64,000 nt of DNA from Desulforamulus hydrothermalis Lam5 = DSM 18033 (GTDB lineage: Bacteria > Bacillota > Desulfotomaculia > Desulfotomaculales > Desulfotomaculaceae), in NCBI RefSeq assembly GCF_000315365.1, contig NZ_CAOS01000008.1, positions 1 to 64,000 of the forward strand, in the 5' to 3' direction. Under the pieces are notes generated by a model. The model was not told where the DNA came from, made no database searches, and saw only the letters and a program-made list of their open reading frames with translations. This document shows positions 15,048 through 62,366 of the stretch, in pieces; position 1 is the first letter of the stretch, and the number at the start of each line of letters is the position of its first letter. A program made the translations under genes and the position numbers.

Positions 15048-15362
15048 TTACAGTCCGCCGGCAGGCCATTGTTCTGTGATTACCTGTTTAATTACGGCAG
15101 CTTTTTCATTAATCAGGGGCATGTCTTTGATTTGCTGCCAGGCCCGGACGGCCCGCTCACGGGCAGCCGGCAGGTCGGCCGTTAGTTTTTCTCCCATTAC
15201 CTGGATCTGCAGCACTCCGGGGGACGGTCGTTCCAGACTGTATAGACTCACCGGCCGGGCCGGTAATACCACGTCATTAAAGCAGCGGTGAGCGGTAACA
15301 ATTCCCCCGGCCACAACAGACAGGAACACCGCCAGGGCCAGCATATAACGTAGTTTGGGCAA
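15048..15362 (-). CDS. Small membrane-anchored protein of unknown function
   Basis: The 104-residue protein has one N-terminal membrane helix (MLALAVFLSVVAGGIV, residues ~7-25) and an extracytoplasmic part rich in charged residues. It resembles no family I know. I chose TTG 15362 because it follows GGGGAGGTGC at seven bases; the upstream frame runs into a repeat element and is not credible. The Shine-Dalgarno site itself lies in the direct repeat that flanks that element. It sits between spoIIP and lepA, so a sporulation link is possible but unproven. Confidence 0.6.
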   Translation of the reverse strand: MPKLRYMLALAVFLSVVAGGIVTAHRCFNDVVLPARPVSLYSLERPSPGVLQIQVMGEKLTADLPAARERAVRAWQQIKDMPLINEKAAVIKQVITEQWPAGGL

Positions 15363-15367
15363 AAAAA

Positions 15368-15678
15368 GCACCTCCCCGATAAGGATGTGCCAAACTGTAA
15401 ACAAACATTTCCGGTGGTTTATGATCCCCTTTAGCTCCGGTCTACGCACCGACAGCACTATGATTCGCTACAGTCGCCATTGGGGTCGCCTCAAACGGGC
15501 CATCCTGGCCCGGTTCGGCTGGCGCCCACGTCCTGTGGGCGCCACCCCATGGCTCCTTCCGCGCATCAAGTGCTGTTACCGGTGCTTCGACAAGTCGCTG
15601 GCAGGGGATCATAAAAACACCACAACCTTGTTTTTCAACCTTTGTCGACAGTCTGGCACCTCTTTGATAAGGATGTGC
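15368..15678. repeat. Palindromic mobile-like element, copy 1 (265 bp) with flanking direct repeats
   Basis: The element spans 15391-15655. Its left end (CAAACTGTAAACAAAC...GGTGGTTTATGATCCCC) and the reverse complement of its right end (CAGACTGTCGACAAAGG...TTTATGATCCCC) are related but unequal in length. A second copy in opposite orientation lies at 62231-62345. Imperfect 23-bp direct repeats, 20 of 23 bases identical (15368-15390 and 15656-15678), abut the ends exactly and are themselves imperfect palindromes. Compared with copy 2 it has about 148 extra core bases (15456-15603), including a GGCGCCCAC/GTGGGCGCC hairpin. It encodes no credible protein. Confidence 0.75.
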
Positions 15679-28524: not shown

Positions 28525-28758
28525 AAAAATATAAAAACCTCTCATCCCATAGGGACGAGAGGTTACTCCCGCGGTACCACCCCGGTTGATAAGCAAATGA
28601 CTTATCCCCTTAAAAGCTGTAACGGGCATACCCGGTTTAAGGTAATATATTTCCCCCAAACAACTCCGGGGCGAGATTCAGCAATTTGGCCCACCGCCTT
28701 GCACCAACCGGCGGCTCTCTGCCGGGTTACACCGCTTACTGCTCCCCATCACCGTCAA
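28525..28758 (-). promoter_or_regulatory. T-box leader, leucine-type specifier (CUC)
   Basis: Read on the minus strand, stem I contains GATGGGGAGCAGTA (AGTA loop-E element) and AGAGAGC, then GCTGAATCTCGCCCCGG. The triplet CTC after GAAT (28673-28675) is the likely specifier for leucine. The T-box core GGGGTGGTACCGCGGGA (28567-28583) is complete. It is followed by a terminator hairpin (CCTCTCGTCCC/GGGATGAGAGG) with a T-rich tract ending near 28525. The next genes are the acyl-CoA synthetase and leuS. Confidence 0.93.
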
Positions 28759-28837
28759 TAATGTATTTGCTTTTGTTTTTATATAGTGGTTATTATAACC
28801 AGACAATTCACTTATGTCAACGAATGTTTTGTTAATT

Positions 28838-43279: not shown

Positions 43280-43648
43280 GTTTCAATTCCTTATAGGTAG
43301 GCTAATAACTGGTTAGCCTGGTTAGCCTGGCTTCCCAAGTGTTTCAATTCCTTATAGGTAGGCTAATAACGTATACTCGTCGAATTTTGCTTTACCGTTG
43401 CCGATGTTTCAATTCCTTATAGGTAGGCTAATAACGTAAATCTCGGACGGAAGGCGACCTTTTTGCACGGTTTCAATTCCTTATAGGTAGGCTAATAACC
43501 CTTCCAGGTGGACCGGCATGTTATCAATGCGGATTTTGTTTCAATTCCTTATAGGTAGGCTAATAACCTATTGTCACCTGCAGTTCCTCACGTTTTTCCT
43601 TGTTTCAATTCCTTATAGGTAGGCTAATAACGTCTTGAGAGAAGGAGT
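43280..43648 (-). CRISPR. CRISPR array, six repeats plus the left half of a split spacer
   Basis: Six identical 30-bp repeats (GTTTCAATTCC...GCTAATAAC) start at 43280, 43341, 43406, 43470, 43538 and 43602. The five complete spacers are 31, 35, 34, 38 and 34 bases. Read on the minus strand the repeat ends in ATTGAAAC, the usual 5' handle of type I-B-like crRNAs, so transcription is probably leftward. After the sixth repeat, 17 bases of spacer (43632-43648) run into an IS21 end. No cas genes lie in the window. Confidence 0.95.
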
Positions 43649-46149: not shown

Positions 46150-46198
46150 CTGCGGCTGAGCCTATCCAGTTTCAATTCCTTATAGGTAGGCTAATAAC
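46150..46198 (-). CRISPR. Right part of the split CRISPR array (19-base half spacer and one repeat)
   Basis: Bases 46150-46168 complete the spacer interrupted by IS21. An identical 30-bp repeat follows at 46169-46198. With minus-strand transcription this is the leader-proximal repeat. Only 61 bases remain before the end of an IS3 element. Confidence 0.93.
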
Positions 46199-59485: not shown

Positions 59486-59655
59486 CTTCTTATCCAGAGC
59501 GGCTGAGGGACTGGCCCTATGAAGCCCGGCAACCTTCTTGGTTATCCGAGAAAGGTGCTAATTCCTGCAGAAGATTTTCTTTCTTCTGAAAGATAAGAAG
59601 AGGGCGTAGATGTTATGGCCTCTTCTGGTCTGTCAGAAGAGGCCTTAATTTTTCA
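59486..59655 (+). promoter_or_regulatory. SAM-I (S-box) riboswitch with terminator
   Basis: P1 is CTTCTTATC (59486-59494) with GATAAGAAG (59592-59600). Core motifs AGAGCGGCTGAGGGACTGGCC, ATGAAGCCCGGCAACC and AAGGTGCTAATTCC are all present. The terminator GGCCTCTTCT/AGAAGAGGCC with a T tract lies at 59618-59653. Its 5' arm can instead pair with AGAAGAGGGC (59595-59604), giving the antiterminator. It turns metNIQ off when SAM is high. Confidence 0.96.
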
Positions 59656-62209: not shown

Positions 62210-62364
62210 AAAGGCCCCATGCGGGCCTTTCAAACTGTAGACAAAGGTTGTAAAACAAAGTGAGGTGGTTTTATGATCCCCTGTCGGTGCGCAGACCGGC
62301 GCCAAAGGGGTTCATAAACCACCGATAATGTTCGTCGACACTCTGAAAGGCCCTTGCGGGCCTT
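62210..62364. repeat. Palindromic mobile-like element, copy 2 (115 bp) with flanking hairpin repeats
   Basis: The element spans 62231-62345, in opposite orientation to copy 1 at 15391-15655. Its long end (CAAACTGTAGACAAAGG...TTTATGATCCCC) is on the left and its short end (GGGGTTCATAAACCACCG...GACACTCTG) on the right. Both flanks are nearly the same terminator-like hairpin, AAAGGCCCCATGCGGGCCTT (62210-62229) and AAAGGCCCTTGCGGGCCTT (62346-62364). These serve metQ (plus strand) and sigK (minus strand). It looks as if one bidirectional terminator was duplicated by the insertion. Confidence 0.75.
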
Positions 62365-62366
62365 AT

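Follow-up and report, generated by a model that had tools for sequence, protein, structure and literature searches.

A miniature element family flanked by duplicated hairpins in Desulforamulus hydrothermalis and its probable mobilisation by an IS1182-family transposase

Results

Two miniature elements in the window lie between imperfect hairpin repeats

The window, a stretch of 64,000 nucleotides from Desulforamulus hydrothermalis, contains two related, oppositely oriented elements, both of which have a long end and a short end. Copy 1 (15391-15655, minus strand) is a 265-bp non-autonomous element. Its short end (15391-15429, plus strand) consists of the terminal sequence CAAACTGTAAACAAAC and the subterminal sequence GGTGGTTTATGATCCCC, and its long end (15604-15655, minus strand) of the terminal sequence CAGACTGTCGACAAAGG, a spacer and a subterminal inverted repeat. 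Between the two ends lies a full-length TwoAYGGAY RNA (RF01731; 15439-15592, minus strand), which scores 65.2 bits against a gathering score of 43. Copy 2 (62231-62345, plus strand) is an internally deleted element of 115 bp without TwoAYGGAY, with its long end at 62231-62281 (plus strand) and its short end at 62307-62345 (minus strand).

Both copies are abutted by imperfect direct repeats. At copy 1, GCACCTCCCCGATAAGGATGTGC on the left (15368-15390) is identical at 20 of 23 positions to GCACCTCTTTGATAAGGATGTGC on the right (15656-15678). Copy 2 is enclosed by the terminator hairpins AAAGGCCCCATGCGGGCCTTT (62210-62230) and AAAGGCCCTTGCGGGCCTTA (62346-62365), the latter followed by a T-rich tract, and the flank alignment gives 18 of 21 identical positions with one gap. 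A sequence-only reading of the window had placed the two opposite copies, their long and short ends and the abutting imperfect repeats, and all of these were confirmed. As single-stranded DNA, the copy 1 hairpin is weak (-3.4 and -2.2 kcal/mol, z -2.8 and -1.1) and the copy 2 hairpin is strong (-7.9 and -7.7 kcal/mol).

The copy 1 hairpin is located just upstream of a small gene adjoining spoIIP, with a TTG start near 15362 on the minus strand. It includes the Shine-Dalgarno-like sequence GGAGGTG (within window positions 15362-15390), and a similar hairpin is found in five congeners. The window also contains six CRISPR repeats at 43280-43631 and one about 2.5 kb away at 46169-46198, a T-box leader (28548-28761, minus strand) and a SAM riboswitch (59487-59599, plus strand).

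Flanking duplications occur throughout the host genome

Copies 1 and 2 were used as queries against the 2.69-Mb host genome. Copy 1 yielded at least 40 copies at 90% identity or more from 169 candidates, from which a consensus was built, and copy 2 revealed a second, shorter element class. The end motif CAGANTGTNGACAAA has 168 occurrences when up to one mismatch is tolerated, and its reversed control has 5. At the fetched loci, 73 candidate end pairs were recognised, and 56 of them carry flanking duplications scoring 12 or more, a rate that is biased because the loci were chosen by similarity and ends; some end pairs have no duplication. The genome contains at least 56 such elements; 36 of them measure 260-269 bp and about ten are near 115 bp, and copies of the size class of copy 2 number about 16. 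The duplications of the 56 copies have a median length of 22.5 bp (range 12-29).

Genome-wide, the flanking duplications are far above chance. When left flanks were aligned with the right flanks of other copies, a score of at least 12 was reached in 4 of 3000 pairings and a score of at least 14 in 1 of 3000, and none of the 3000 reached 17 or 20. Copy 1 scores 17 and copy 2 scores 14, while 25 end pairs of the host genome score 20 or more, and the best repeat pair is identical at 29 of 29 positions.

The duplicated stretch is a hairpin

Each duplication consists of a hairpin, mostly of the terminator kind, with its symmetry centre in the middle of the duplication. With RNA parameters, the mean minimum free energy (MFE) of the duplicated stretches is -12.5 kcal/mol, against -2.2 for nearby control 24-mers, and 53 of 56 have z below -2. 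The symmetry centre coincides with the middle of the duplication in 41 of 56 cases and is off by one unit in 13 more (54 of 56 in total); in control 22-mers the dyad position is spread broadly. Moreover, 52 of 56 stretches look like terminators, being followed on the right by a T-rich tract or preceded on the left by an A-rich one. Ungapped comparisons between paired hairpin copies revealed no compensatory change, of which locus L002 had at first suggested some.

In another genome, G002, 20 of 22 elements (loci L250-L259 and L347-L357) have different hairpins on their two sides. Several of these hairpins match the opposite side of another copy, and L258 and L357 do so reciprocally. The swapped hairpins may reflect either recombination between copies or faulty assembly of this genome, which is incomplete.

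Sister species carry a single hairpin at the empty sites

Flanking repeats of this kind might be parts of the element itself, or tandem hairpins that already surrounded the insertion point. The repeats are indeed imperfect in 42 of 56 copies, and tandem hairpins lie near some copies (for example at L097); on the other side, the flanks vary from site to site and 14 of the 56 pairs are perfect. The closest congener, Desulforamulus putei (G005), was searched with flank segments of 18 copies, and 16 orthologous regions were aligned. One hairpin and no element were found in 12-13 of these 16 D. putei intergenic regions; L015, L024 and L059 are rearranged or unalignable there, and L014 has a weaker hairpin. 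The copy 1 site is a single GGCACCTCC...AAGGATGTGCC-type hairpin in five congeners (G003, G004, G005, G006 and G007), and the copy 2 site is a single terminator in four (G003, G004, G005 and G006).

At no alignable congener site were both flank repeats found without the element, which is the arrangement that the sequence-only reading had named as contrary to its own proposal. Since the empty sites hold one hairpin, the flanking repeats are true target duplications. Repeats that belong to the element or pre-date it, an extremely improbable explanation for the family as a whole, are thus already refuted at the tested sites. The other copies and the single-hairpin empty sites agree with the initial proposal of a miniature element whose insertion into hairpins duplicates the whole stem-loop.

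Judged by its flanks, one terminator seems to be occupied in both the host genome and D. putei (L110 and L063), in opposite orientations, by a 57-bp remnant in the former and by a 265-bp element in the latter.

Full-length IS of the IS1182 family have the same ends and duplicate hairpins

A scan of the order for the end motif revealed full-length elements within the genus. In the congener G003, five IS about 1.6 kb long carry these ends, and every one of them lies between the perfect repeats of a duplicated 21-27-bp hairpin. D. putei (DSM 12395) contains the IS together with a 93%-identical copy of the 265-bp element, and the ends of the two are alike. Four D. putei contigs (C17, C28, C29 and C42) terminate in an IS about 1.6 kb long. 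C17 and C28 have flanks that are reverse complements of one another, as do C29 and C42, and each contig pair probably represents a single hairpin insertion seen from its two sides. The terminal inverted repeat CAGA[C/G]TGTNGACAAA is common to the IS of G003, the IS of D. putei and the miniature elements. The target and the type of duplication are also alike, with hairpin duplications around full-length and miniature elements. A transposase-bearing relative with the same ends, as the sequence-only reading had envisaged, therefore exists and duplicates its target in the same way.

The IS and the miniature element have no more than their terminal 16 bp or so in common, and their interiors are unrelated; the element is therefore a passenger with matching ends and not an internally deleted IS.

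The partner transposase has 490 amino acids with DUF772 and DDE_Tnp_1_6 domains, and matches the NCBIfam model of the IS1182 family (NF033551) with 456 and 446 bits against a cut-off of 270. Long duplications are given in ISfinder for some IS1182 members, and long duplications of 24-29 bp are also made by the IS1202 family. The latter was rejected as a source, as the best NCBIfam model of the partner is that of IS1182 and no IS1202 model was among the matches listed. The initial view that the element fits no IS family was mistaken, and IS1182 is a family whose targeting of palindromes is known (PMC5678879, PMC4923244).

A search of the host genome returned no homologue of the partner transposase, and mobilisation there, which we infer, would therefore be historical. 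Two PF13751 transposases of the host (C12:1476 and C6:5353) were considered as the mobiliser and rejected, since no CAGANTGTNGACAAA ends were found around either. Among the motif matches listed, no long transposase-bearing element was recognised at 26 ends of the host genome without a listed partner (about 3.5 kb each). The host genome also has an IS with an IS1182-type transposase from a different branch, which lies inside a CRISPR array (L062, contig C6).

Transposases of hairpin-duplicating IS form one clade

Related IS with the same or very similar ends were found in Alkalithermobacter, Tenericutes bacterium MO-XQ, Acholeplasma-type and Bacillota assemblies, G007 (where the ends are CAGACTGTCAAA) and a Peribacillus plasmid. 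They are surrounded by hairpin duplications of 17-34 bp, mostly perfect. Those of their transposases that were placed in a maximum-likelihood tree form one clade with support of 100/99. The clade also takes in ISEfa7, as well as a few copies that lack a clean duplication. IS1182 relatives outside the clade have duplications of 4-8 bp, or none that we found, and their long branches make the finer order of the tree unsure.

ISEfa7, an IS1182-family element of Enterococcus faecium, encodes a transposase about 52% identical to that of D. putei, and its ends (CAGACTGTAGACAAAG) are the same as those of the elements described here. The two plasmid copies compared have a hairpin on one side only and no duplication. 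ISCfr1, ISPsp5, ISPse1 and ISCaa15 have the family in common with our elements but belong to other branches, and their duplications are short (4-6 bp in our analysis); 4-bp duplications have been reported for ISPse1 (PMC3281130) and ISCaa15 (PMC3196728).

The TwoAYGGAY RNA looks like cargo

TwoAYGGAY is an RNA of unknown function (PMC2864571) that has been proposed to bind CsrA (PMC4333381). A full-length match to it forms the core of the 265-bp element, whereas neither of these papers treats the RNA as part of a mobile element. In 27 of 113 genomes of the order, TwoAYGGAY has matches at E 0.001 or better, with at least 22 in each of the host genome (G000), G002, G036 and G069. The copies in G094, which belongs to another family, have similar ends and mostly hairpin duplications; in other genomes, TwoAYGGAY lies within repeats with different terminal sequences.

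With matches well above the gathering score and a proposed CsrA-binding role (PMC4333381), the element might primarily be a host regulatory RNA that has spread by selection for a function in 3'-UTRs. Its orientation in the host genome, however, is the same as that of the terminator T-tract in 21 cases and opposite in 21, and compensatory change among the TwoAYGGAY copies is slight (5 of 2742 pair cells). Additionally, the 115-bp and shorter forms have the same duplications without the RNA, and the RNA is therefore not needed for insertion. Because there is no orientation bias, covariation is slight and RNA-less forms exist, TwoAYGGAY looks like the cargo of the element and not the reason for its insertion, and we consider the spread of a host RNA by selection to be improbable. 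The TwoAYGGAY core and the size of the family go beyond what had been read from the window.

Discussion

It is very likely, in our judgement, that the copies form a high-copy, MITE-like non-autonomous family moved in trans by a DDE transposase of the IS1182 family, which targets hairpins by their shape and whose insertion leaves the stem-loop duplicated by gap repair. In this mechanism, the transposase would recognise the terminal CAGA[C/G]TGTNGACAAA. The target, typically an intrinsic terminator, would be picked by hairpin shape and not by sequence, and the 3' ends of the element would be linked to the hairpin at its 5' feet, one per strand. Gap repair after joining at the 5' feet would copy the whole stem-loop onto each side, and hence the length of the hairpin would set the length of the duplication, with the centre of the palindrome as the centre of the duplication. 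Three parts of the model we infer from sequence comparisons: that the element was mobilised in trans, that the transposase recognises an extruded hairpin or cruciform, and the proposed strand chemistry.

IS1272 and TnSha1, IS1182-family elements of staphylococci, insert into hairpins, often terminators, without a sequence consensus, and they remove or replace the stem-loop without target duplication (PMC5678879, PMC4923244). The elements described here likewise have an IS1182-family transposase and a hairpin target, but the stem-loop is kept and duplicated. Stem-loop replacement of the IS1272 type is ruled out, as occupied sites have two hairpins and empty sites have one. Joining at the 5' feet, which would duplicate the stem-loop, has been drawn as a hypothetical pathway b (PMC5678879), and the present elements fit this duplicating pathway. 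Our literature search, with most subscription reviews outside its scope, found no report of IS1182-derived miniature elements or of an observed stem-loop duplication.

A more specific proposal, to which we give an even chance, is that the IS1182 clade reads an extruded hairpin or cruciform and joins the element at its two 5' feet, the length of the duplication being set by the structure of the target and not by a fixed stagger, and that TwoAYGGAY, at least in this order, is largely a mobile-element core, spread in some cases by this route. Alternatively, a transposase of the same family and clade could read the palindrome as duplex DNA, through symmetric binding with variable spacing and a long staggered cut, without any extrusion. 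All that the data establish is that the duplicated stretch is palindromic, with the dyad at its centre, and the 4-bp duplications of other IS1182 branches are themselves palindromic (CTAG, TTAA), so that two-fold symmetry alone may matter. Duplications of 17-34 bp that have no common sequence and end at the hairpin feet are nevertheless hard to obtain by a fixed duplex contact, whereas a variable length is natural if the hairpin feet meet at the junction. We therefore regard duplex reading as credible but rather doubtful.

The length of a target duplication is normally a fixed signature of the transposase. Among the full-length IS of this study, it ranges between 17 and 34 bp and tracks the hairpin. 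The family provides dozens of naturally occurring examples, empty sites included, of a pathway of duplication that has so far only been modelled, and structure-directed transposition thereby becomes directly testable. After such an insertion, one or more intact hairpins remain at the gene end, and this may account for the tolerance of so many copies. Moreover, the long-unexplained TwoAYGGAY motif is placed within mobile elements, and the paired hairpins may serve as barcodes of later recombination between copies.

Two further loci of the host genome deserve mention. At L096 (C10:84334-85163), two identical copies of 114 bp, whose flanks are also identical, are 718 bp apart, which points either to a tandemly duplicated locus or to an artefact of the assembly. 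Contig C12, at the start of L061, begins with GGCCACGCGTCGACTAGTCAGGGGGGGGGGG, which looks like a leftover adaptor or primer in the assembly.
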